Origin: Nitrosomonas sp.
GTDB taxonomy: Bacteria; Pseudomonadota; Gammaproteobacteria; Burkholderiales; Nitrosomonadaceae
Direction of reading: 5' to 3'
Assembly (NCBI GenBank): GCA_019635215.1
Contig: JAHBZZ010000008.1
Location: 62,001-126,000, forward strand
Length of the DNA: 64,000 bases
Part shown: piece by piece, positions 17,776 to 31,063 of the stretch
Layout of the letters: each line of letters opens with the position of its first letter
Position numbering within the stretch: position 1 is the first letter of the stretch
Program-made: the position numbers and the translations under genes
Notes under the pieces: generated by a model
What the model saw: only the letters and a program-made list of their open reading frames with translations
Told to the model about the DNA's origin: nothing
Database searches by the model: none

Positions 17776-20700
17776 ATGTTATCCATCGTTACGCAGAAAG
17801 TACGCTGTTATGCCGGTCAAATAATATGTCGTGTGCTGATTATGCTGTTTTGCCTGGTGCAACCGGCTATAGGGTCAGCCAGCGGTGAAACTGTTTTTCA
17901 TGATATGGCTGTTGTGTTGTTACCCGATCATAATGAGATCCGGGTGACAGACCGTATCCGCCTGCCGCAGTCAAAGCAACTGAAATTCAGTCTGCATGCG
18001 CATTTAACCATTGACAGCGTCGAAGGCGGCCACGTGGTGTCATCGCCATCGGGTGCAATGAAAGGCGCACCTGTTCCCTTAAAACATTATACGTTGACTG
18101 CTGCGCCGTCAACGGAGTCCGTAACGCTGCATTACCGTGGTCATATCAATCACGCGGTGCAGGCGCCGGGGCAAGAGTATGCGCGCAGTTTCAGTTATAC
18201 GCCGGGCGTGATTTCCGAAGAAGGTATTTTTTTGGCCAATTCTACCGCTTGGTATCCACAGTTTGAAAATCCGATGGTGTCTTTCCGGTTAAATATCAGC
18301 CTGCCTGCAGATTGGGATGCGGTCAGTCAGGGACGCCTAATTAACGTGCAACAGGAAGGGCAGCAGCGAGCCATTGTTTGGGAAGAATTACATCCACAGG
18401 ACGATATTTATCTTGTTGCGGGACGCTATCAGCGTTATACCCAGTCAACCGGCGCTGTTGAAGCCTTGGTTTATTTACGTGAAGCGGACGAGGCGCTGGC
18501 AAAAAGATATCTGGATGTCACCGCACAGTATATCGGCATGTACAACAAACTGCTCGGACCATATCCCTATGCTAAATTTGCGCTGGTCGAGAATTTCTGG
18601 GAAACCGGTTACGGTATGCCATCGTTTACTTTGTTGGGCCCCAAAGTGATTCGCTTCCCTTTCATTCTGCATTCATCCTACCCGCATGAGATTCTGCACA
18701 ATTATTGGGGCAATGGTGTGTTTGTCGATTACGCTGGAGGGAACTGGGCGGAAGGATTGACGGCATATCTCGCCGACCATCTGGTCAACGAACAGCGCGG
18801 TAAGGGAGAAGAATACCGGCGGGATGTTCTGCAAAAATATGTGGATTTTGTCGGTAAAGAACGTGATTTCCCGATCGCACGTTTTATTTCACGGCATAGT
18901 TCAAGTTCCGAAGCGGTAGGTTATGGTAAGACGATGCTATTTTTCCATATGCTGCGGCAGGAAGTGGGGGACGCGGATTTTATCCGTGTGTTACAGCGGT
19001 TTTACAGTCAGTTTAAATTCAAACAGGCGACGTTTGCAGATTTGCAGCGTATGTTCAGTGAAGTTGTGAACCGGGATTTTTCCACATTTTTTGAACAATG
19101 GGTCTATCGAAGCGGTGCACCCGATCTGGTCGTGGAATCGGCGTCTGCAACCAAGACAGAACAGGGCTATAAGCTTAAAGCTTTGCTGAAACAAACCCAG
19201 AAGGGCGAGTTATATCAGTTGCAAGTGCCTATTGTCGTGCATCTGGAAGGCGAAGAACAGGCGCATCATGCGCAAATCGTTTCGCAGCAGCGTGCCCATG
19301 AGATTGAGCTGGATTTTGCAACCCGGCCTTTGCGTATCGACGTTGATCCGCAATTTGATATTTTCCGGCGCCTGGACAACCGTGAAATACCTTCCGCGCT
19401 GTCGCAGGGATTCGGTGCGGAAGATTCGCTGCTGATTTTGCCGGCGGATACCAATGTCCGGATTCTTCAGGCATATGAGGATTTGGCGAATAACTGGCAA
19501 AGAACACAACCGGGACAATTTGAAGTGAGGCTGGATAATGAATTGAATGTGCTGCCGCCGGATCGTACTGTCTGGATTATGGGATGGCAGAACCGGTTTG
19601 CGGATGATGTGATTGAAGCTTTATCCGGACAATCGGTACATTATACTGACAAGATATTCACGCTGGATGGCCAGAATTTTGTACCGGATGAACATTCAAT
19701 CGTACTGACTGCCAGGCAACCTATCAATCCGGATAGAACATTGTTATGGGTGGCCGGGAATACATCACGGGCGATAGCCGAATTGGCGCGAAAACTGCCG
19801 CATTACCGTAAATACAGCTATCTTGCTTTTCAAGGCGATGAGCTGACCAATATCCTCAAAGGCCAATGGCCGATAATCAGTTCACCGTTATCACTGGCGG
19901 TGCGGCAAGCTGATGGTGAAATCGTTGACCATTTGCGAACCGGTAAGCTGGCATCGCGTCAGGCACTGGCGCAATTACCGCCGGTTTTTTCTGAAGATCG
20001 AATGATGGCTGACATTGCTTTCCTGGCGGGTGAGCCGCTGAAAGGGCGTGAGCTGGGGAGCATTGAGCTCGATCAAGCTGCCGACTATATCGCGCAGCAG
20101 TTTCGACTTGCCGGTTTGCAACCCGGGGGGGATGGCGATAATTTTATGCAATCCTGGCGGCAGGATGTGGGAATGCCCAAAGGGAAAGTTGTATTACGCA
20201 ACGTGATTGGCGTTTTGCCGGGGAAAAACTCCGAGTTGACAACAGAAAGTCTGGTTATCGGCGCGCATTACGATCACCTCGGTACAGGTTGGCCGGATGT
20301 GAAAGCCGGAAACGAGGGGAAAATCCATTACGGCGCAGATGATAATGCCAGCGGCGTAGCCGTTATGCTGGAACTGGCCAGACAGGCAGCGGAACAATGG
20401 CGCCCCGAGCGTAGTATCATTTTTGTTGCGTTTACCGGTGAGGAGTCGGGCTTGCTGGGGGGCAGATATTATTTGAACAATACAAAGCAGTATCCCGCGG
20501 AAAAAATTACGGCTATGCTGAATCTTGATACTGTAGGGCGGCTTGGTGAAAATCCGGTAACGTTATTCGGAACCGACAGTGCGCGCGAGTGGGTGCATAT
20601 TTTTCGTGGTGCAGGATGGGTCACTGGAATTCCAGTGAATGCGGTGGCCAATGATTTCGGTTCCAGTGATCAGACTGCTTTTATCGAAGTCGGTATCCCG

Positions 20701-21183
20701 GCAGTACAGTTTTTCGCCAGTGCACATGAAGATTATCATGCGCCCGGTGATACCACCGACAAAATCGATGCAGCTGGGCTTGTCAAGGTGGCTGCCGTGC
20801 TTAAGGAAGCTGCCGAGTATTTATCGAATCGTATTGAACCGCTGACCATCACACTGCCATCCGGAAATGCTTCTGTTGAAGCGAACGCCCTGGTATCGAA
20901 TCATGTTCCGCGTGCCAGACGCAGTACAAGCCTTGGCACAATGCCTGATTTTTCTTATCAGGGTGAGGGTGTGCGTGTCGATAGCGTAATGCCGGATTCT
21001 CCGGCGGAGCAGGTACAATTAAGAGCCGGCGATATTCTGGTCCAACTTGCCGGTAAACCGATTGCTGATCTGAAAGCATATGCCGATATTTTGAAATCGC
21101 TCAAGACCGGACAGAAGGTGGAATTGGGATATCGTAGAGAAGGGAAAATGCGTACCGTTGAAGTGGTGCTCGGAGCGCGCTAG
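17776..21183 (+). CDS. exported M1-like / M28 / PDZ metallopeptidase fusion
   Basis: 1135 aa. Signal peptide about 1-36. The N-terminal half is an M1-like gluzincin: zinc motif HEILH (His304, Glu305, His308) with the third ligand Glu326 in NWAEGL. The middle (about 450-780) resembles no family I can name. An M28 aminopeptidase domain follows: His831 (GAHYDHLG), Asp855 (GADDNASGV), the pair Glu889-Glu890 (TGEESGLLG), Asp in [10 protein letters not shown] and a late His in [14 protein letters not shown] domain closes the chain (about 1055-1135; [18 protein letters not shown]). Two active sites and a peptide-binding domain in one periplasmic protein suggest stepwise peptide degradation. Confidence 0.85.
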
Positions 21184-21687
21184 AGCAGTTTTTGTGCGGA
21201 TATAAACTTATCCTGCCTCTATCAGAGAAATAGGAGGTTCTGCTGAGGAAGTAGGTTGTAAACACTTGATATAGCCTACGTCATATAACTGCTCAACCCT
21301 GCCTGAAAATCAAAAGTATAAAAACCTCGTTCCCACAAAAGACAAGCAATTTCATTTATGGGGATATAGTTATCACAGGTTTCATTTTTTTTCGTAAATA
21401 CTGGTGACAAAGCATCATGTCTCCGAAGGGAGACAAATAATTTCTGTTATAAACATAAGATTATTCTGATTTGTGATTTTTCTCACTGATTTGACGACAA
21501 TTTTACTTTCTCCATTAAAAGAAAATAATGCAAGACATTAATTAATAATAAATATAATAAATGGCATAGATTATGCTTAGTATAAGATTGATACTCCAGT
21601 TCTGGCTGATGCTATCTATATTAAATTATAACTTACAAATATTTATCTATCTGATCCTAATAAATAGTTTATGAGGAATTACCGCCC
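21184..21687. other. AT-rich leader region of the acyl-amino-acid island
   Basis: No gene. It holds a 6-bp dyad GTCTCCGAAGGGAGAC (21418-21433) and, downstream, the sigma-54-like promoter at 21562-21577. The dyad lies about 145 bp before that promoter, the usual distance for an activator of sigma-54 polymerase, so it is a possible enhancer site. The sharp fall in G+C from here on marks the left edge of the island. Confidence 0.4.
21562..21577 (+). promoter_or_regulatory. sigma-54-like promoter before the FeeM-type gene
   Basis: TGGCAT-AGATT-ATGC-T: GG at -24 and GC at -12 with the right spacing; one clear mismatch (ATGC for TTGC). The expected start of transcription is near 21588, about 100 bases before the coding start. 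A second, near-perfect site stands before the PEP-CTERM gene at 24505. Confidence 0.5.
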
Positions 21688-22578
21688 ATGCAGATCATGA
21701 GCCAATCCCTGCCGAAAATTACGGCAAAAAATGTCCGATCAACAACCTCAATACCTAATCTTTATTACCTCATCTCCCCAGAATCTGACAGCAGCAGTCC
21801 ACAACTTCCCCTCATCCAAGAACATTGGATGCCAGAAAATCTGAATAGCAATCCTGATCACATAGCCGAACCGCATTGTCTCCTGCAATACGATGGTTTT
21901 AATATTCACCTGGTTAATTCACCTAAGCAACGTATCAAAACCAGCACCCTGATCAAGCGCATGTATGCATCTCGGGGTTATGATATTGAAAGTGCTTCGG
22001 TTTTTTCATACAATCCCAACCAATTTACATTTCTGGCGTCAGTCGGTGAAATTGCTGCTGGAACGCTTACACTAGGAATTGATTCAGATGAAGGCTTACT
22101 TGCTGATGAGCTCTATCATCAGGAAATTAATAACTTCAGAAAAGAGGGAAGAAAAGTTTGCGAATTGTCGAAACTGGTCATAGATCCACAGTACAGTTCG
22201 AAATGCAGATCAAAAGAAATGATTGCCTTACTCTTCCAAATCGCTTACATCTACGCACATAGCATCTGTAAAGCAACAGACTTTTTTTGTGAAGTCAATC
22301 CCCGTCATGCTGAACCTCAGAAACGCATGTTTGGATTTCGCAAGATAGGGGAGGTGCGAACCTGCCCACGCGTCAATGCACCTGCAGTATTACTGCACTT
22401 AGATCTTGGATTTGTAAAAAAACAGATTGATTCTTTGGCTGGATCGCACAACAAAAATACAAAAGATCAATCTCTATATCCATATTGCATTTCCCATTGG
22501 CCAGACCAACGAATAGAAAATCCTGGCCAACATCCTCCAAATCAACATCTCATATCCGCTTTTCAAGCACGAAATTAG
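21688..22578 (+). CDS. FeeM-type N-acyl amino acid synthase (GNAT-like)
   Basis: 296 aa. The central part (about 75-245) has the pattern of FeeM-like acyltransferases, which join a long acyl chain from acyl carrier protein to an amino acid such as tyrosine: IKRMYASRGYDIES, AGTLTLGIDSDEGLLADELY, VCELSKLVIDP, FCEVNPRHAEPQKRMFGFRK and a closing RVNAPAVLLHLDL. These enzymes are relatives of acyl-homoserine-lactone synthases and of the acyltransferase at 27720. Preceded by a sigma-54-like promoter; followed by the relic of a second copy and an FAD oxidoreductase. Acyl and amino acid substrates cannot be read. Confidence 0.7.
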   Translation: MQIMSQSLPKITAKNVRSTTSIPNLYYLISPESDSSSPQLPLIQEHWMPENLNSNPDHIAEPHCLLQYDGFNIHLVNSPKQRIKTSTLIKRMYASRGYDIESASVFSYNPNQFTFLASVGEIAAGTLTLGIDSDEGLLADELYHQEINNFRKEGRKVCELSKLVIDPQYSSKCRSKEMIALLFQIAYIYAHSICKATDFFCEVNPRHAEPQKRMFGFRKIGEVRTCPRVNAPAVLLHLDLGFVKKQIDSLAGSHNKNTKDQSLYPYCISHWPDQRIENPGQHPPNQHLISAFQARN

Positions 22579-22614
22579 TTTGCCGCGTATACGATTCATA
22601 ATAACTAAAACCGA

Positions 22615-22848
22615 CAAATTGGAGAAGAGAAAATCTGCTTGTGAGTCAATGCTTCGGCAGTACTGTTGCGCCTGGAACACGCGTTCATAAAAAAACAGAT
22701 AGAATACAATAAGCCGGTCCCTATACCCGCATTGCATTCCACACTGGAATACTTCAATAAATCAAATGTCACTACAAAACATACAACAAGACATCGCGCC
22801 AGCCGGGTATCATTTTTTAAAACAATCACCTACGTATGCCAATGTTGA
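22615..22848 (+). pseudogene. relic of a second FeeM-type gene (C-terminal part)
   Basis: In one frame the sequence reads QIGEEKICL, a stop, then VNASAVLLRLEHAFIKKQIE. This aligns with the end of the intact gene (KIGEVRTCPRVNAPAVLLHLDLGFVKKQID). It is therefore a broken tandem paralogue with only its last about 40 conserved codons left plus an unrelated tail. It overlaps the start of the FAD oxidoreductase gene by 13 bp. Confidence 0.65.
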
Positions 22849-24413
22849 CAGCATCAGATATTACAGACAACGTAACAGGCAAATTTAGCGATATATCAGG
22901 TATTTGCAGACCCAAAAATATCCGGGAAGTTATACAGATAATCCGTGACGCACGCCTTTCTGGTACCCCCATCTATCCTTACTCCACAGGTTTCAACTGG
23001 GGTTACGGGTCACGCTCCCCGGTTGTTAAAGGATCCCTGCTCGTAGATTTAGGCGGTATGAATAAAATTCTTAATGCCGACCAAATCTCGATTGACAACC
23101 CTGTTGCCGTCATTGAGCCTGGCGTAACACAAATACAACTGCACGAATTTCTCAAAACACACGCGCCAGGCTTGAAGTTCAATGTAACAGGCTCAGGTAA
23201 AGATACCAGCATTATTGGTAATGCGCTTGATAAAGGTATTGGATATATGGGGCCAAGAAAAGATGATTTATTCGGCCTTGAAATTGTCACGGGAGCTGAG
23301 AAAATTATTCGTACTGGTTTTCGCAGACTGGGTGAATCATCTCAAATTTCCTATAATCATCCATCTGGGTTAGGACCAATCCTGGACGGCTTGTTTTTCC
23401 AGAGTAATTTCGGGATCGTAACTAGCGCTTGTTTCAAGCTATACCCTAAGCGACCCAAAGAAATTGCCATTTCAATCGCACTCAGGGAAGAAAATGACCT
23501 GCCTCAATTTATTAATGAATTACTGCGACTTAAACGCGAAGGCTTGATCACTGGCGTAACTCACATTGCAAATCGCACAAGATCCCGTTCCACTCTTGAA
23601 TACGGGATATCCAGATACTTACAGGTACATTGCAAGCTCTCAGGAACCCAATTAGTCGATGAAACAAACCGCGCACTCAATATGATTTCCCATGGAGAAT
23701 GGGTAATTCTGTCCTCTGTAACAGGCAATAGTGGTCAGGTAAAATCAGCAGTTAACGAAATAAGAAGAAGAACCAGAAAATTCGGCTTTCTGAAAATAAT
23801 GACGGACAGATTTCTGGGTTCAGCATTCGCTATTACTCATAACTTGCGCTTATTTCCCAAGATACGTATTTACGCAGCAGCCATTTCTGCCATGCAACCT
23901 CTCCACAATCTCGCCTTGGGTGAGCCCACAAACATTCCATTGGAGAATTTGATCTGGAAATTTGGAAATACCAATATACAAGCGAATGATCTTGACAAAT
24001 CATGCTGCGGATTACTGTATATCAGCCCTGTTTTGCCTACAGAAGGAAATTCTGCATTTAGAATACTGAAAGAGATGAAAGCTATCGCTGAATCCTTCAA
24101 CCATGTTTTATATATAACCCTCAATATCGAATCAGGCACATCATTGGTAGCCATTACCAACCTGTTGTTTGATCGATCATCTTCTAACGAAACCAATCGT
24201 GCCCATCAGTGCGCCGAAGCATTGCTAAATTTCATTCACAAAAACAATCTTGAAGTGTATCGTGCGCGTATTGACCACATGCACGATATAGTAGCGAACG
24301 ACACACACTACTGGAATACAGTCTACTCATTCAAACAAATATTGGATCCCGACAATATCATTGCACCCGGGCGATATAACCTGATACAGCCAAATTCTAC
24401 AGCCAGACCATGA
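22836..24413 (+). CDS. FAD-linked oxidoreductase (FAD_binding_4 family)
   Basis: 525 aa, no signal peptide. The N-terminal half is a PCMH-type FAD domain: YPYSTGFNWGYGSRSP, VAVIEPGVTQIQLHEFL, GSGKDTSIIGNALDKGIGY and LFFQSNFGIVTSACFKLYP, closest in style to 4-cresol dehydrogenase / vanillyl-alcohol oxidase relatives. The end (DPDNIIAPGRYN) is typical for that group. Such enzymes oxidise phenolic or aliphatic alcohols, which would suit modification of an N-acyl-tyrosine made by the upstream FeeM-type enzyme; that link is inference from position. Coding starts inside the relic of the second FeeM copy. Confidence 0.75.
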   Translation: MPMLTASDITDNVTGKFSDISGICRPKNIREVIQIIRDARLSGTPIYPYSTGFNWGYGSRSPVVKGSLLVDLGGMNKILNADQISIDNPVAVIEPGVTQIQLHEFLKTHAPGLKFNVTGSGKDTSIIGNALDKGIGYMGPRKDDLFGLEIVTGAEKIIRTGFRRLGESSQISYNHPSGLGPILDGLFFQSNFGIVTSACFKLYPKRPKEIAISIALREENDLPQFINELLRLKREGLITGVTHIANRTRSRSTLEYGISRYLQVHCKLSGTQLVDETNRALNMISHGEWVILSSVTGNSGQVKSAVNEIRRRTRKFGFLKIMTDRFLGSAFAITHNLRLFPKIRIYAAAISAMQPLHNLALGEPTNIPLENLIWKFGNTNIQANDLDKSCCGLLYISPVLPTEGNSAFRILKEMKAIAESFNHVLYITLNIESGTSLVAITNLLFDRSSSNETNRAHQCAEALLNFIHKNNLEVYRARIDHMHDIVANDTHYWNTVYSFKQILDPDNIIAPGRYNLIQPNSTARP

Positions 24414-24504
24414 TTGTCGGTTTTTTTTACACTTTCAAAGAAAAAACATATCATCAGCATCGATAATTATTGTAATATATTGATTTTGAATGATTGTTCA
24501 TCAT

Positions 24505-24520
24505 TGGCACAGATGTTGCT
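24505..24520 (+). promoter_or_regulatory. sigma-54 promoter of the PEP-CTERM gene
   Basis: TTGGCAC-AGATG-TTGCT contains TGGCAC-N5-TTGC, matching the -24/-12 consensus at every strong position. Expected start of transcription is near 24531, about 60 bases before the coding start. PEP-CTERM genes are known to be controlled by sigma-54 together with the PrsK/PrsR two-component system in exosortase-bearing Proteobacteria. Confidence 0.75.
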
Positions 24521-24591
24521 TATATATCAGTACCTGCAAAGAATTTATCAAACAGGAATTATTTGAATAGTTAATGCCAAGGAGTAAGAAC

Positions 24592-25443
24592 ATGAAAGCT
24601 TTACACGGAAAACTGAAATATGCAGCTGTCGCCGCCCTATTATGTGGGCTTGGTTCTCAAGTACAAGCTGTACCATTACCATTTACAGTTAACCCTGCTA
24701 ATGCAGGATACAACGCCCCACTCAACATTAATCCATTTGAAGCCACCTTCATTCAGGGGACTGCATCAACATTGGTTGATTTAAACTACCTTGGTGTAGC
24801 AGGACAATCACATGGCGTAGGTTATATCAATTTCAGTGGGTTTGACCACATTACTAATGGACCCATTGGCGCTGCTAGTTCAGGTTTAGGTGTTAATTAC
24901 GACTTGTTTATGACATACGAATATACACTGCAGTATGTCCCCGGAACGGGCAGTGGTTATGCGACTCTAGGTAGCGAAAACACGCTTACCAGTTTGATGT
25001 TCAAGCTGTGGATTGATGGGCAAGGAGCTACGACGCTCACTCCTGCGAGTGCTACAGCAGGCAATGCTTCAGGTGTAGCAGCTATCGTTAATTTTAGCGG
25101 AACCGAACAACTTCTCGGGCAGAGTACCGAGCTTTATGCAGGCGTAGCTAACATTAACCTCCTCGGAGGAACAGGGTTCAACAGCACGATCGGATTTGAA
25201 CTAGTCTCTCCGACAGGTCCGTTGTATTTTACAGCCCCTTCTCCTTTTTATAATGTTTCTTTCGAAAATTTTAATAATACTAGCCAAGGCGTTGTTTTCA
25301 CTACGGACGGAAACTCTCTGGTACTCAACTCAGCCAATGGTGGCATAGACTTCAATCGTATACCTGAACCAGGAACATTGGCTTTACTTGCAATTGGTTT
25401 ATTGGGTTTTAGTTACCGGTTCAATTCCAGATTGAGCGCATAA
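24592..25443 (+). CDS. PEP-CTERM sorting-domain protein
   Basis: 283 aa, exported and probably processed by an exosortase. Signal peptide about 1-24 (KYAAVAALLCGLGSQVQA). The C-terminus has the full sorting signal: Pro258-Glu259-Pro260 (RIPEPGTLALLAIGLLGF), a hydrophobic span and a basic tail (SYRFNSR). The body is Gly/Ser/Thr/Asn-rich with beta character and no Cys in the mature part, like many surface or matrix proteins of this class. Start at 24592 because AAGGAG stands nine bases before it; the frame's earlier ATG overlaps that RBS. A sigma-54 promoter precedes, a strong terminator follows. No exosortase gene lies in the window. Confidence 0.85.
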   Translation: MKALHGKLKYAAVAALLCGLGSQVQAVPLPFTVNPANAGYNAPLNINPFEATFIQGTASTLVDLNYLGVAGQSHGVGYINFSGFDHITNGPIGAASSGLGVNYDLFMTYEYTLQYVPGTGSGYATLGSENTLTSLMFKLWIDGQGATTLTPASATAGNASGVAAIVNFSGTEQLLGQSTELYAGVANINLLGGTGFNSTIGFELVSPTGPLYFTAPSPFYNVSFENFNNTSQGVVFTTDGNSLVLNSANGGIDFNRIPEPGTLALLAIGLLGFSYRFNSRLSA

Positions 25444-25470
25444 GCAAAAAACAGGTAATTAGTTTCACAC

Positions 25471-25497
25471 AAAACCCGGTTATTACCGGGTTTTGTT
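25471..25497 (+). terminator. terminator of the PEP-CTERM gene
   Basis: AAAACCCGGT-TATT-ACCGGGTTTT forms a perfect 10-bp stem 27 bases behind the stop codon; the 3' arm ends in T4, followed by GTT. The A-run on the other side makes it able to work in both directions. It shows the PEP-CTERM gene is transcribed alone. Confidence 0.75.
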
Positions 25498-25756
25498 ATA
25501 TGCTCAACAAATAAACAAAATTGGGGCTCACTGCTCTTAGAGATCTCCTGTAAAAAAGAGCTTGTGCTGAGGTTTAATATGACTTAGTCTAATGAATCTG
25601 GACAATCCAGTTAAGAGAAAATAGCATTAACTGAAGGAAGAAATGGTAACGAGAAAGCAGTGCACAAAAGAATCCAAGTAAGATGGATCAGGGAATACCA
25701 GAGGAATGATGCGGATTAGTAAGAATTTCTACCTATGTTTATAAAAAGGAATAGCC

Positions 25757-26659
25757 ATGCCAAGTATGCAAGCTATGCTTTTACTGGCAGCTCAAAATTA
25801 CCTGAGTAAGCAAACATTGGAGAGAATCCCGGAATCTGATTTGATAATGACCCGGCAAGCCAATGTAGATCAGTTCGATATGATCGTTAACTCTAACATA
25901 GCCGTCAGCTTCTCCGGGGCAATTGAATTACTGTTTCAAATTGGAGCAATCCCCTATGCAAAGAATATTCTTGACTTAGCCTGCGGACCTGGGCATTTTA
26001 GTTTATTCTTGGCAAAATATAGCAAAGGAAACGTAACAGGAGTTGATTTATCCGATCAAATGCTCGCAAAAGCACACGATAACGCCAAAAAAGAAGGGTT
26101 ATCTGATCGTGTACAGTTTCTTTCAGGAGACATTACAAACCTGAACCAATTCAGTGACAAACAGTTTGATTTGATTACCTGCACAAATTCTGCTCACCAC
26201 TTACCATCTCCCGCATTATTAACCTCAATGATGGATGAAATAGACCGAGTGTTGACCGACCAGGGAACCGGGTTTATCATGGATTTAACTCGCCTAAGGA
26301 CGGCTGGATGTTTAAACAAATATATTAACCTAATGGGAAAGGAATATTTAGAGCACGGATTAGAAGCACTTTATGAGGACTTCCACAATTCAATGTTTGC
26401 GGCGTGGACACCTGGTGAACTACGCTCAGCTATTTCTATGAACTCTAGTCGTAGCTGGTTTCATTTTTCTATATTTCCGCTTCCAATAAACCAATTTCTA
26501 TTCGCTAAGCCAAAAGGATGGAAACCTAAAAAACCTAAAAGCTTTTTTAATTGGCCAGATTCAAAGATACCGATACGTACAGACTTACAAAAAGATTACA
26601 CAGCTTATCGACAATCGCTTTTTTTATCTTATCGATGGTTTCTAAAACAACTGAACTAA
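25757..26659 (+). CDS. class I SAM-dependent methyltransferase
   Basis: 300 aa. Motif I ILDLACGPGHFSLFLAKY (about 72-89), the acidic end of strand 2 (GNVTGVDLSDQML), motif II region DLITCTNSAHHLPSP and a post-motif MDLTRLRT. A C-terminal extension of about 90 residues, rich in aromatic and Lys residues, is unusual. Substrate unknown. It lies between the PEP-CTERM gene and the IS relics; a 259-bp leader with no clear promoter separates it from the terminator. Whether it acts with the FeeM/FAD pair is open. Confidence 0.75.
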   Translation: MPSMQAMLLLAAQNYLSKQTLERIPESDLIMTRQANVDQFDMIVNSNIAVSFSGAIELLFQIGAIPYAKNILDLACGPGHFSLFLAKYSKGNVTGVDLSDQMLAKAHDNAKKEGLSDRVQFLSGDITNLNQFSDKQFDLITCTNSAHHLPSPALLTSMMDEIDRVLTDQGTGFIMDLTRLRTAGCLNKYINLMGKEYLEHGLEALYEDFHNSMFAAWTPGELRSAISMNSSRSWFHFSIFPLPINQFLFAKPKGWKPKKPKSFFNWPDSKIPIRTDLQKDYTAYRQSLFLSYRWFLKQLN

Positions 26660-26728
26660 ACAACCACCAGCTAAAGCCGGTGGAGTAGTGACAATGACTA
26701 AAGTCAGGATACGGGTCTTAAAATCCGT

Positions 26729-26930
26729 TTAGCTTTCGGTTCTAAAATTATCATCACCTCTTGGTTCAAAACGATGCTCCAAATAGTTTTGGATCATTTC
26801 TTCTGTTAGTTCTTCTGATGTTACACAAAAATATCCTCGTGCCCAAAAATAGTGCACCTAGTAGCATTTTTTTAAGTCAGGAAAACTTTAAACGACTTCG
26901 CAGAAGTTCTCCCTTTGATACGCCTCACTA
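26729..26930 (-). pseudogene. IS200/IS605 TnpA relic
   Basis: On the minus strand the pieces IKGRTSAKSFKVF, (frameshift) FPDLKKCY, (stop) VHYFWARGYFCVTSEELTEE and MIQNYLEHRFEP read as the C-terminal half of the HUH/Y1 transposase of IS200/IS605. The N-terminal half with the catalytic His pair is gone. The hairpin CCACCAGCTAAAGCCGGTGG at 26662-26681 is the kind of subterminal structure these elements use. Dead copy. Confidence 0.75.
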
Positions 26931-26999
26931 ATAATACTCCATGCATGATATTCCTCTATTTTTTATAGCAGAACTCAAATAAATTGATCATAATTTAAG

Positions 27000-27157
27000 A
27001 TGGCTTATCCATCATCATTTCGCTGTAAAGTTTTGTCTGTTCGTAAGAGAAGGAAGGGCTGACAATTGCGCAGGCGGTGGCGCGTATTTGTGTGGGAATT
27101 GCCAGCGTGACGCGCTGGGTGAAGAATCCCAATTTAAAATTGAATCATTTTATGTGA
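27000..27157 (+). pseudogene. IS630-family transposase relic (N-terminus)
   Basis: ATG at 27000 begins MAYPSSFRCKVLSVR; after a one-base shift the reading continues EGLTIAQAVARICVGIASVT and RWVKNPNLK to a stop at 27155. This is the N-terminal helix-turn-helix part of an IS630-type transposase. The DDE domain is absent. Confidence 0.65.
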
Positions 27158-27719
27158 CGTAGGCTATAGCGAGCAGCATACTTGAGGAAGATGAAGGCAT
27201 AGTAACAACTAACCCGACAAGCTGGTCTTGAGATTGGCGAGAATAGTGTTGATTCACCGGAACTCTATATATAAGCCAGCATATCGCGGAACTAAACACA
27301 GTGGTAATACATTCGCTAACGCTGATCACCGCTCAGCTGATTGGACCGACGGTATGCGAAACTGGATAAATCGATGATGTCGAGAAATTTTACAGTTAAG
27401 GTGCTCCGCTACATTCAATTCCTTGAATTGCAACTGAGGGTGCTCGACATTTTCATTTGCTAACAACACGAGAAAAATTAAATATTTGAAGAATAAAGCC
27501 GATAGCTCTAATTCTGATAGCTGATCTGATGTTTGTTCACTTGTATCCTGACCATTAATATGAATTTTTTCGAAAGAAAGTATATTGATGCAACTGATCA
27601 GATTAAGCAATGCAGATTCCCTACTGTAATTGCATGAAGGTACGTAATACAATGGCAGGGAGCTCGTTATCAATGTCGATTTGCCATGATTTTTCAACTA
27701 ATTCCAGAGAGATGTAGTC
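27158..27719. other. gap between IS relics and the acyltransferase gene
   Basis: 560 bp, AT-rich. A 123-codon minus-strand frame (27326-27697) fills part of it but looks like chance: no signal, no domain and no RBS of note. No promoter consensus could be fixed before the acyltransferase, unlike the two sigma-54 sites elsewhere in the island. Confidence 0.35.
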
Positions 27720-28466
27720 ATGTTTTCACAAGGAACAACCCATCTAGGTACGTCCTTCAAACAGTATTTCGAAATCGTGCCCGCACTTACTGAAGATTTA
27801 AAGCGTGAAGCTTACCGCATTCGTCACTCAGTTTATTGTGAGGATCTGAAATATGAACCGCTGCGACCAGATCAACTTGAGTCGGATGAGTATGACGCAT
27901 ATGCGCTACATCTACTGATTCACAGTGTTAAATATGACATATTTATTGGGTGTGTCCGTGTCATTATCCCTCCTACAGACGATCCTGACTGGCTTTTACC
28001 ATTCGAAAAAATTTGTGCACATGCGCTCAACCGTTCGATCATTGATCCGACAAAATTACCAAGAAAACAAATCGCCGAGATCTCGCGCCTTGCAGTCATT
28101 TCATCATTCCGTCGACGTAAAGGAGAGGCTACCAACCCTATTAATCTTTCTGAAGAAGATTTCAACCACAATCCAGTACCACGCTTTCCCTATATTCCAC
28201 TGGGTCTTTACTATGGAGCAATCGAATTAGCGCGTTTACACGATATCGAGGTATTTTTCATACTCACCGAAGAGCGCTTGGCTAATCACTTTAATAAATT
28301 AGGTATGCAAATTGAATTTATTGGTGCTCCTCTCAAGCACCGCGGTCTACGTTTTCCATCAATGGTCAATATTAATAAAACTATTCATAATATACGGCCA
28401 GTTATTTATCCACTTTACCAGACAATAGCGCAGGATGTCAGAACAGGACTGATCAACAAAAACTAA
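27720..28466 (+). CDS. PEP-CTERM/exosortase system-associated acyltransferase
   Basis: 248 aa. Fits the acyltransferase family found beside PEP-CTERM/exosortase loci: LKREAYRIRHSVYCEDLKYEP, SDEYDAYALHLLIHS, CVRVIIPPTDDPDWLLPFE, RKQIAEISRLAVISSFRRRKGE, PYIPLGLYYGAIELAR and NHFNKLGMQIEFIGAPLKHRG. These are GNAT-like relatives of autoinducer synthases and of FeeM; the true product is unknown, but an acyl-amino acid is the best guess. An RBS AGAGAGATG precedes the ATG. Flanked by IS relics on both sides. Confidence 0.85.
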   Translation: MFSQGTTHLGTSFKQYFEIVPALTEDLKREAYRIRHSVYCEDLKYEPLRPDQLESDEYDAYALHLLIHSVKYDIFIGCVRVIIPPTDDPDWLLPFEKICAHALNRSIIDPTKLPRKQIAEISRLAVISSFRRRKGEATNPINLSEEDFNHNPVPRFPYIPLGLYYGAIELARLHDIEVFFILTEERLANHFNKLGMQIEFIGAPLKHRGLRFPSMVNINKTIHNIRPVIYPLYQTIAQDVRTGLINKN

Positions 28467-28493: not shown

Positions 28494-29306
28494 AGAGGTT
28501 GTCACAATCTTTTAAATGTCGTAGACTGGGGCATGAGAAAGAGTGCCCCTAGTGACATCAGCAAGGAAGTGTTCGAAGAGATCAGGTTGTTGCTGGAGAG
28601 CATGTGCAGGCAGACCAAGCTGAGAACGGTGGATTTGTACGAGGTGTTCTGCGACGTGCTATACCTGTTCAAGATTGGCTGTCAGCGGCGAAGGCTCCCG
28701 AGTGATTTTCCTAAGTGGCGAACGGTGCATGCCTACTTTGCTAAATGGAGTGAACCCGGTCCGGATGGGTTCAGCGTTCTGCAGCGGGCTTTAAAAAATG
28801 TGGTTGGTGCAGCTCGTACAAAACAGGAGCGGAAATCCTCGCCGCACAGAGCGTCAAGAGCACCGATAGTGTACAGAAGAAAGGTGCAGGTAAGAAGGTC
28901 TCGGGGATCCAAATGCATATCGCAGTGGATATCCAAGGTTTACCCCATGCGATTACCGTCACAACAGCCGATGTCACTGACCGCAAGGGAGCATACAGGC
29001 TTTGGCCACTGTGCTGCCGACTTGCAAGCCGTTCAGAGCATTTTGGTTGACGGTGGATATGTCGGCCAGCCATTTGCTCATGCGGTTGAAGATTTGCTCG
29101 GTACCCAGCTCCAAATCGCAAAACGCAGCGAGCTATATACCTTTGCTGTCATGCCCCAGCGCTGGGTGGTGGAACGATCATTCGCCTAGATCGGAAAGTG
29201 CCGGCGTTTATGGAAAAACTGCGAATGAAAACTCAATTCCAGCTTGCAGTTCATTCACCTCGCCTCTTCTTGGCCCTACTACTCAGAAGATCGTGAACAG
29301 TTTCTC
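28494..29306 (+). mobile_element. decayed IS5-family element
   Basis: Imperfect ends are still visible: AGAGGTTGTCACAATCTT on the left and, on the complement of the right end, GAGAAACTGTTCACGATCTT. No target duplication found. The transposase inside is broken (next entry). It separates the acyl-amino-acid island from the ammonia monooxygenase gene. Confidence 0.65.
28533..29280 (+). pseudogene. IS5-family transposase, multiply broken
   Basis: The N-terminal part FPKWRTVHAYFAKWSEPG and the C-terminal part VDGGYVGQPFAHAVEDLLGT, MPQRWVVERSFA are in one frame. The middle (KKGAGKKVSGIQMHIAVDIQ, TVTTADVTDRKGA) lies in another. After 29189 a stop replaces Trp, then IGKCRRLWKNCE, a stop, and SSLQFIHLA. 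So at least two frameshifts and two stop codons. The DDE residues survive only as pieces. Confidence 0.8.
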
Positions 29307-29479: not shown

Positions 29480-30040
29480 TTAATGCTGAATCTGCCGCCA
29501 TTTCAAATACTTATCGGTGAATAATACGATCAAAAGAAATGCAATGATATAGGGCGTCACTGCAAAAAAGGTATCGGTTAGATTTTTGGACTGGATTTGC
29601 AGAGGATATTCATAATGTAAAGCCGGGATGCCGAGACCGGTGATTGAAAGTGTATATTGCCCTTTATTCAGGTTAAATTGACCCTTGATGACGCCATCTG
29701 CATGGTTGGTGGAATGTAAAGACGTTATTGTTTCTCCCGGGGTGTCGCCATTGTTGCGCACAACTTTTATGTCAATCGGCATGGTGCGCAAGGCGTGGTC
29801 GACGAGGTCCAGAACCCAAAGTGTTTCGCCTTCATGGGGAATTTCAGTGCAGTATTCAGCTTCTGGGTCGTATTGCGGCTGGTAGGTGCTCAGATGCACC
29901 ATGCTGCCTGCCATATTGCGCACGCAAATGTCCGATTCCAGTGTTACTTTTCCATGTGCTGCGGCGAAACCTGAATAAAATAATGTGACGAAGATGATGA
30001 TACTTGATGCCCACCATTTTTTGATATGTTGTTTTAACAT
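29480..30040 (-). CDS. periplasmic membrane-anchored protein, putative metal binding (AmoD-like?)
   Basis: 186 aa. Signal peptide about 1-28, mature start AAHGKVTLESD, large periplasmic domain, then one C-terminal span (about 158-178) with a short basic tail. Potential metal ligands cluster after the signal: His29, Cys39, Met43, Met47, His49, Cys64 (CVRNMAGSMVHLSTYQPQY). The layout (exported, Cys/Met/His cluster, C-terminal anchor, next to a monooxygenase subunit) resembles AmoD/PmoD-type copper proteins, but I cannot confirm homology; the motif spacing is not the PmoD one I know. It is 132 bp behind amoC in the same direction, likely co-transcribed. Confidence 0.6.
   Translation of the reverse strand: MLKQHIKKWWASSIIIFVTLFYSGFAAAHGKVTLESDICVRNMAGSMVHLSTYQPQYDPEAEYCTEIPHEGETLWVLDLVDHALRTMPIDIKVVRNNGDTPGETITSLHSTNHADGVIKGQFNLNKGQYTLSITGLGIPALHYEYPLQIQSKNLTDTFFAVTPYIIAFLLIVLFTDKYLKWRQIQH

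Positions 30041-30172: not shown

Positions 30173-31063
<891 letters not shown>

Follow-up and report, generated by a model that had tools for sequence, protein, structure and literature searches.

A 64,000-nt stretch of a 3.39-Mb Nitrosomonas sp. genome (assembly GCA_019635215.1; contig JAHBZZ010000008.1, here C45:62001-126000, hereafter the window) contains an island of five genes on the + strand, encoding a FeeM-type N-acyl amino acid synthase, a flavin adenine dinucleotide (FAD)-dependent flavoprotein of the vanillyl-alcohol oxidase (VAO) family, a PepA-like PEP-CTERM surface protein, a class I S-adenosylmethionine (SAM) methyltransferase, and a PEP-CTERM/exosortase-associated acyltransferase (Table 1). 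A sequence-only reading of the window had named these genes in this order, and both the profile matches and the coordinates agree: PF21926 (FeeM) at 159 bits against a cut-off of 27, FAD_binding_4 at 67 bits, PF07589 above its cut-off, with flocculation-associated PepA (NF033554, 126 bits against 80) as best NCBIfam match of the PEP-CTERM protein, a methyltransferase match above its curated cut-off, and TIGR03694 (exosort_acyl) at 257 bits against 112. The island is also AT-rich, as had been stated, with a mean GC content of 0.405 compared to 0.479 for 56 other one-kb windows (28-29 kb omitted), four of which are equally low. Based on the evidence below, we consider it probable that this is a partly decayed Nitrosomonadaceae cluster for an N-acyl-(aromatic)-amino-acid of the cell surface, served by two sigma-54 branches, one acting through PrsR and one through a GlrR-like regulator.

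The enhancer elements at both promoters, the FeeM, IS630-like, and LolD relics, and the IS5 remnant in Table 1 were not part of the earlier reading. For pepA, the ATG at 24592 is preferred because an AAGGAG ribosome site lies shortly ahead of it; the encoded protein has an N-terminal hydrophobic stretch, a PEP motif, a C-terminal hydrophobic segment, and a basic tail, its ends being read by eye. An open reading frame (ORF) at 27326-27697 was rejected as a gene, as it overlaps the broken LolD copy.

Table 1. Features of the island and its edges, in window coordinates (UAS, upstream activating sequence; IS, insertion sequence).
Feature	Position	Strand	Remarks
UAS1, palindrome TGTCTCCGAAGGGAGACA	21418..21435	+	Putative GlrR/QseF-type enhancer box of feeM; fits TGTCN10GACA
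UAS2, half-site variant ACGACA	21494..21499	+	58 nt past UAS1
feeM sigma-54 -24/-12 site TGGCATAGATTATGC	21562..21576	+	8/10 consensus letters
FeeM-type N-acyl amino acid synthase (predicted)	21688..22578	+	296 aa; putative catalytic Glu is E159
Relic of a tandem second feeM gene (3' end)	22612..22770	+	tblastn, E 2e-7
VAO / 4-cresol-dehydrogenase-family flavoprotein	22836..24413	+	525 aa; Tyr57 and Tyr475-Arg476 at putative phenol-binding positions
PrsR-type box TGTCGGTTTTTTTTACA	24415..24431	+	73 nt ahead of the pepA -24 element
pepA sigma-54 -24/-12 site TGGCACAGATGTTGC	24505..24519	+	10/10 letters
PepA-like PEP-CTERM surface protein	24592..25443	+	Start shifted from 24574
Class I SAM methyltransferase	25757..26659	+	
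IS630-like transposase relic	26997..27166	+	Two pieces
LolD-like ATPase relic	27310..27643	-	Two pieces; trace of lost exporter module
PEP-CTERM/exosortase-associated acyltransferase TIGR03694	27720..28466	+	
IS5-family transposase remnant	28533..29189	+	Adjoins the cluster

To place the island among its relatives, we surveyed 120 Nitrosomonadaceae genomes. The curated FeeM cut-off is passed by 42 of them, five only through TIGR03694-type genes, and 37 hold a true FeeM match (>110 bits). Forty stretches of at most 20 kb, several of which stop at contig ends, were taken and their proteins clustered; 32 contain FeeM and, together with the window, make up 33 FeeM loci. The sequence-only reading had called for a search for linkage in these relatives, and the homologues are not scattered: FeeM is accompanied by a clustered PEP-CTERM gene in 24/33 loci, by LolCE-like permeases in 22/33, and by a TIGR03694 gene in at least 21/33. 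The last count is a lower bound, because among the 12/33 loci that show no TIGR03694 gene within the stretch taken there is one (genome G096) where it sits just past the edge, and because of the stretches stopping at contig ends. FeeM is often followed by tailoring genes and a pair of LolCE-like permeases, after which come DUF1302 and LolD-like genes on the opposite strand, a LolA-like gene, and TIGR03694. The tailoring genes vary by strain and include a VAO-type flavoprotein, ThiF with a nitroreductase, an O-methyltransferase, members of a fatty-acid desaturase/hydroxylase family, a glycosyltransferase, and an AMP-ligase with a reductase.

Co-occurrence with PrsK/PrsR and exosortase, which had been named as a further check, holds for PrsK, found in 37/37 FeeM genomes (genome-wide GlrR, PrsK, and FeeM counts are among the matches listed, which affects weak matches alone). 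The genome of the window itself encodes RpoN, PrsK, and PrsR, but its single exosortase match (long EpsH type) is on a different contig (C42). A second TIGR03694 gene lies near PrsK on C45.

Two other kinds of FeeM-related locus were noted in the survey. One is a second, shorter FeeM-like group (~114-130 bits, 174-245 aa) found in another genus of the family, away from the main FeeM gene (G018:C33:23652, G034:C1:2064231, G036:C1:1917942, G046:C2:50485, and others). The other is a FeeM locus type (L072 and L073) with a VAO gene, a methyltransferase, one LolC-like permease, LolD, and a TonB-dependent receptor.

Matches to TGGCAC-N5-TTGC in the region -300..+60 of each gene were counted as sigma-54 sites if they kept GG and GC and agreed in 8/10 letters or more, and the counts were compared to those in shuffled sequences. 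The sites that had been read ahead of feeM and the PEP-CTERM gene recur in the relatives: feeM carries one in 31/33 loci compared to 0.9 expected, or 32/33 when a longer upstream region is considered, and cluster PEP-CTERM genes in 28/28 compared to 1.4 expected (18/18, 6/6, and 4/4 in the three clusters). The single feeM gene without a site (L052) has two palindromes farther upstream of its called start. As far as sequence comparison goes, these two -24/-12 sites are real and conserved in relatives. Sigma-54 control, as proposed in the earlier reading, is supported by promoter motifs for these two genes but not for the others, where sites are few and weak: 3/19 for FAD genes (1.1 expected) and 5/26 for TIGR03694 genes (1.1 expected), none of either with nine or more letters, and 0/3 for the window-type methyltransferase. 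None was found for O-methyltransferase (0/5), desaturase (0/13), or GDSL (0/8) genes in these regions, and counts were likewise small for ThiF/nitroreductase (1/17), glycosyltransferase (2/9), LolCE (5/47, 3.8 expected), DUF1302 (0/20, 1.7 expected), and LolA (2/20, 1.3 expected) genes. Six neighboring or housekeeping clusters, used as a control, gave 2/56 compared to 4.3 expected.

The feeM promoter appears to be a trait of ammonia oxidizers. In a lineage comparison of 79 loci with named records (from the best 80 of 452 matches), 26/27 ammonia-oxidizer loci have a sigma-54 site at feeM (1.0 expected). Among 50 loci of other Beta/Gammaproteobacteria, each with 250 nt or more of upstream sequence, the count is 7, not clearly above the 5.5 expected by chance (two more loci were too short). 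Box and sigma-54 site occur together in 14 ammonia-oxidizer loci and in no others, counted with strict letters and a shorter region. The named ammonia oxidizers are largely genomes already in the survey, so only the other loci add new evidence. Outside ammonia oxidizers FeeM is also close behind another gene in 20/41 cases, so that a promoter may lie farther up in these loci; within ammonia oxidizers this is so in 0/25.

The sequence-only reading had placed feeM and the PEP-CTERM gene under one sigma-54 circuit, a proposal that the enhancer boxes ahead of the two promoters do not support. De novo motif search on 27 PEP-CTERM promoters, the window left out, returned TGTCGAtAtTTTTTACA, ending TTTACA, with the spacing of motif 1 of Haft 2006 (PMC1569441); there, PrsR-controlled promoters are given a 17-nt box ending TTTACA and located 32-92 nt ahead of the sigma-54 site. 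This box scores at least 15 bits in 23/28 cluster PEP-CTERM promoters (it falls short in L041, L047, L050, L080, and one of the two promoters of L076) and 20.3 bits at window pepA. The feeM promoters instead yielded a palindrome, TGTC[TG]C-N6-G[AC]GACA (TGTCKC-N6-GMGACA), in some cases with one or two letters off, which scores 20.9-32.1 bits in 31/31 promoters of its own training set and has a log-likelihood of 411 compared to 73-82 for six shuffled sets, the latter run with fewer restarts. Neither promoter set bears the box of the other: the PrsR-type motif reaches at best 5.4 bits at 31 feeM promoters (-1.2 in the window), and the feeM-type motif at best 4.3 bits at 28 PEP-CTERM promoters. 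Spacing to the promoter is also different, at 61-87 nt for PEP-CTERM genes and 108-136 nt for feeM. The palindrome or a close variant lies ~124 nt ahead of the feeM -24 element in 32/33 loci, and a half-site G[AC]GACA follows it by 58-61 nt in 25/33; the ACGACA of the window falls outside this exact pattern. UAS1 is the sole match to a loosened palindrome pattern in the 64-kb window.

The palindrome resembles QseF/GlrR sites, given as TGTCN10GACA (PMC8745638) and as TGTN12ACA (PMC6075780), and the feeM promoter of the window combines the stricter form with a sigma-54 site. A TyrR-type site was considered as its identity and set aside, since the letters do not fit. Among 13 matches to sigma-54 activators in the genome of the window, six are strong, one of them a protein whose best family is NF011695 (GlrR), with 594 bits compared to 398 for the next; this is below the curated equivalog cut-off of 763, and we therefore call it GlrR-like only. 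Its gene is part of a kinase-lipoprotein-regulator operon whose layout recurs in two relatives (the three loci together are L251, L253, and L254). The small protein of the operon matches no family, but its start looks, by eye, like a lipobox. GlrR-like genes (>600 bits) are present in 37/37 FeeM genomes (G062 has a partial one at 347) compared to 20/83 others. Strict palindromes, set against a reversed-pattern control, number 85 compared to 27 in FeeM genomes, 25 compared to 13 in FeeM-negative genomes with GlrR, and 11 compared to 20 in genomes with neither. Autoregulation of GlrR was set aside, as the three GlrR operon regions have no upstream box.

In relatives, palindrome and sigma-54 promoters also occur ahead of genes for EpsA (TIGR03020), cyanophycin synthetase, subtilases, a CAP/RTX protein, and one PEP-CTERM protein. 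Such pairs are found in 20/41 loci of GlrR genomes (two of them feeM) and in 1/9 without GlrR, the loci being partly hand-picked. In particular, loci L143-L162 were hand-picked among the matches listed, so that their target genes are examples and not a census, and for the EpsA and cyanophycin synthetase families one representative each was tested and the rest judged by similar sequence. The EpsA regulator and cyanophycin synthetase examples come from other Nitrosomonadaceae genomes (L143, L148, L149, L152 and L151, L153-L156, respectively).

The synthase itself is predicted to make an N-acyl amino acid. It aligns to the FeeM structure (PDB 2g0b) with E 2.6e-14, and its E159, invariant in 30/30 sequences, aligns with chain position 96, one off the published number of the catalytic glutamate (Glu95; PMC4897644). 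The FAD protein is, by profile comparison covering its N- and C-terminal parts, a member of the VAO/4-cresol-dehydrogenase family: a profile of 18 homologues finds 4-cresol dehydrogenase with E 6e-116, and the window protein alone does so with E 2e-35. In 4-cresol dehydrogenase, the phenol is bound by what we take to be Tyr95, Tyr473, and Arg474. A family comparison (PDB 1wve, 1dii, 1vao, and 5fxd) aligns positions 95 and 473-474 to Tyr57 and Tyr475-Arg476 of the window protein; of the 18 homologues, 17 have Tyr57, 15 have Tyr475 (the other three Phe), and all have Arg476. Its closest relatives, 61-62% identical, come from two genomes of a different genus, where they too are neighbors of FeeM.

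The identity of the substrate is suggested by what this enzyme replaces. In the tyz pathway, ThiF and nitroreductase enzymes are responsible for cyclizing and desaturating N-acyl-tyrosine (PMC10404671), and such enzymes are also found with producers of N-acyl-dehydrotyrosine (PMC12479983). Across the 33 FeeM loci, 15 have VAO, 11 have ThiF/nitroreductase genes or part of them, none has both, and seven have neither; among 52 FeeM stretches outside ammonia oxidizers, the numbers are two, 32, and none with both. The clustered proteins of the window locus include no ThiF/nitroreductase and a VAO instead. A phenol-type flavoenzyme in this slot thus suggests N-acyl-tyrosine as its substrate, and tyrosine as the most likely amino acid of the FeeM product. 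The earlier proposal that an acyl-amino acid is then oxidized or methylated is accordingly plausible in its first part; methylation is possible. Homologues of the window-type methyltransferase occur in two other FeeM loci of the 33 and in 10/52 stretches outside ammonia oxidizers, and its role is the least certain because it is only ~29% identical to its two cluster mates.

Export of the product by the Lol-like genes of relatives is likewise inferred from folds and linkage. A structure model of the DUF1302 protein of one relative is a barrel of ~18 long strands (mean predicted local distance difference test score, pLDDT, 62, low at the N-terminus) that matches porins and the alginate exporter AlgE, and LolA-like matches of more than 100 bits are present in 32/37 FeeM genomes, not always adjoining FeeM. 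The strain analyzed here has lost the exporter at the locus. Only the LolD relic is left of the module, where relatives keep LolD and with the IS630-like relic adjoining; the LolA-like family (PF17131) has no match in the genome, while LolCE- and DUF1302-like genes were not searched elsewhere in it. Comparable losses are seen in G014 and G054, apparently near-identical genomes (L036, L039) with a LolA pseudogene with stops, and in G036 (L075) and G046 (L074), with weak LolA-like matches only. All four lack exporter genes yet keep open FeeM and VAO frames. In the open-license literature searched, we found no N-acyl amino acid exporter of the Lol-like kind.

These observations fit a pathway in which all functions are predicted from sequence. 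FeeM would attach a fatty acyl chain to what is most likely tyrosine; the VAO-family enzyme, standing in for the ThiF/nitroreductase pair of sister clusters, could oxidize the p-hydroxyphenyl side chain and so yield, for instance, dehydrotyrosine; and the methyltransferase may methylate the oxidized product. In relatives, a LolCDE-like ATP-binding cassette transporter probably extracts the product from the inner membrane, and a LolA-like protein would ferry it to the porin-like outer-membrane barrel. Judging from the motifs, two sigma-54 branches would operate: the PEP-CTERM gene would be under PrsR, and feeM, by way of UAS1 and UAS2, under a QseEGF-like system of GlrK, lipoprotein, and GlrR. 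With a separate GlrR-like branch on feeM, acyl-amino-acid synthesis would answer an envelope signal apart from surface-protein expression. In a wider version, which we hold more tentatively and do not rate as probable, a sigma-54 enhancer of two sites at fixed spacing ties N-acyl-amino-acid synthesis in ammonia oxidizers to a QseEGF-like envelope sensor. Synthesis would then belong to a larger GlrR regulon together with EpsA, cyanophycin synthetase, and surface proteins, the oxidized acyl-tyrosine would take a dedicated Lol-like route to the outer membrane, and strains such as this one would have kept synthesis without export.

One alternative is a single circuit, in which PrsK/PrsR governs feeM as well as the PEP-CTERM gene and the palindrome at feeM is a PrsR site that has diverged. 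Both promoters are of the sigma-54 type, both box types start TGTC, PrsK accompanies FeeM as perfectly as GlrR does, and the PEP-CTERM gene of one relative (L146, genome G022) has two feeM-type palindromes with a sigma-54 site. The low cross-scores and unlike spacing of the boxes argue against a single circuit, as do six genomes with PrsK and without GlrR and FeeM, in which palindromes number two compared to four in the control; we regard it as quite unlikely. A terminator, or the site of some other factor, with the feeM promoter under another activator, is an unlikely identity for the palindrome as well. It is an inverted repeat upstream of a gene, and A-rich letters ahead of it in 11/32 loci are what a terminator for a leftward gene might have. 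However, over 32 loci its distance to the -24 element of the promoter hardly varies (mean 123.5 nt, standard deviation (SD) 6 nt), unlike that to the upstream gene (SD 353 nt), upstream genes point in both directions (18 and 12 of 30 found), a T-rich stretch follows in just 3/32, and the same module stands ahead of EpsA, cyanophycin synthetase, and other genes. That FeeM, the surface protein, and the acyltransferase are unrelated neighbors gathered by insertion elements, with no common pathway, would agree with the IS630-like and IS5 relics within and beside the island, with the missing exporter, and with gene sets that differ among strains. This is already disfavored by the linkage of FeeM to TIGR03694, PEP-CTERM, and LolCE-like genes across two genera, and other Beta/Gammaproteobacteria have FeeM stretches with ThiF/nitroreductase (32/52), DUF1302 (16), and LolA-like (11) genes, making it highly improbable.

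Returning to the cluster with two sigma-54 branches, several further observations count against it or blur it. The related genomes are not independent samples. The score of the GlrR-like protein and the shared perfect co-occurrence of PrsK have been given above, and FeeM-negative genomes with GlrR and without PrsK show a slight palindrome excess only (10 compared to 8 in the control), whereas those with both show 15 compared to 5; the distinction between GlrR and PrsK therefore leans mostly on the box letters. None of the three GlrR operon regions has a sigma-54 site of nine or more letters, and the one TGTCN10GACA among them (L253) falls within the glrR frame. In the window, the feeM sigma-54 site departs from the consensus at two letters, UAS2 is a variant, and the FAD gene has one 8-of-10 match at -181. 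LolD-like genes show an excess of sigma-54 sites (6/26, 1.8 expected), with four 9-letter sites compared to 0.2 expected, three of which are one site in related loci (L042, L088, L089). Of the PEP-CTERM genes in the genome of the window, only 2/6 scanned have sigma-54 and PrsR-type sites (the scan covered 6/8 loci, a simple scan having missed L096 and L097), and the palindromes of L146 mean that the two branches may overlap. As for the chemistry, the amino acid of the product is itself a prediction, VAO relatives other than the closest pair are only ~30% identical, and, as the exporter is lost, the pathway in this strain may be decaying.

Several parts of this arrangement are already in print, namely FeeM beside PEP-CTERM genes, PrsR-type PEP-CTERM promoters, and ThiF/nitroreductase tailoring of N-acyl-tyrosine. 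The earlier reading knew of no description of the set in ammonia oxidizers; the link of FeeM with PEP-CTERM and exosortase as such goes back to Craig, Cherry and Brady 2011 (as cited in PMC11072679, PMC7293339, and PMC4897644). The systems of that study likewise have a FeeM-type synthase beside a PEP-CTERM gene in Gram-negatives; compared to the work as the citing papers give it, the loci described here add a sigma-54 promoter with a GlrR-type box, a VAO enzyme, and linkage to a Lol-like exporter. With the PEP-CTERM regulatory system PrsK/PrsR/PrsT (Haft 2006, PMC1569441), in which a pepA RpoN1 promoter has been reported (PMC9850573), window pepA shares motif 1 and sigma-54 motif 2 at the published spacing, while feeM lacks motif 1 and has another enhancer box. 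The QseE-QseG-QseF / GlrK-GlrR systems are similar in the TGTCN10GACA ahead of a sigma-54 promoter and in the kinase-lipoprotein-response regulator operon; the targets named for them are glmY and rpoE (PMC6075780, PMC8745638). The tyz, oxz, and N-acyl-dehydrotyrosine clusters (PMC10404671, PMC12479983) also combine a synthase with a desaturating flavoenzyme, and in Stieleria a methyltransferase; several Nitrosomonadaceae loci have ThiF and nitroreductase, whereas the window has a VAO flavoprotein in that slot. This protein shares the fold family and the phenol-binding Tyr/Tyr-Arg positions of 4-cresol dehydrogenase, vanillyl-alcohol oxidase, and eugenol oxidase, but is here linked to lipid-amino-acid synthesis.

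Nitrification in soils and sewage plants is driven by ammonia oxidizers, and in these settings aggregation and surface chemistry are important. N-acyl amino acids have otherwise been studied for their roles as antibiotics and surfactants. A possible reason why their synthases travel with PEP-CTERM genes is that both look like sigma-54 outputs in ammonia oxidizers, under two separate sensors. The analysis offers a likely activator with its two-site DNA signature and more candidate targets, and it points to a likely substrate of the tyrosine type and a candidate route of export; if correct, these would belong to a regulated surface-lipid system for which no description was found in the open-license literature searched.

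Some features of the surroundings are also recorded. A 24-nt inverted repeat (21265-21288 / 27150-27173, 88% complementary) brackets most of the island and could represent mobile-element ends; none was seen in three other stretches of the same genome. Just upstream, 17776-21183 encodes a protein of 1135 aa in which M1-like and M28 peptidase domains are combined with a PDZ domain. Downstream, a gene for a 186-aa protein without a Pfam match (29483-30040) adjoins a stand-alone AmoC gene (30176-31060, - strand; PF04896, 431 bits), ~1.7 kb past the island.

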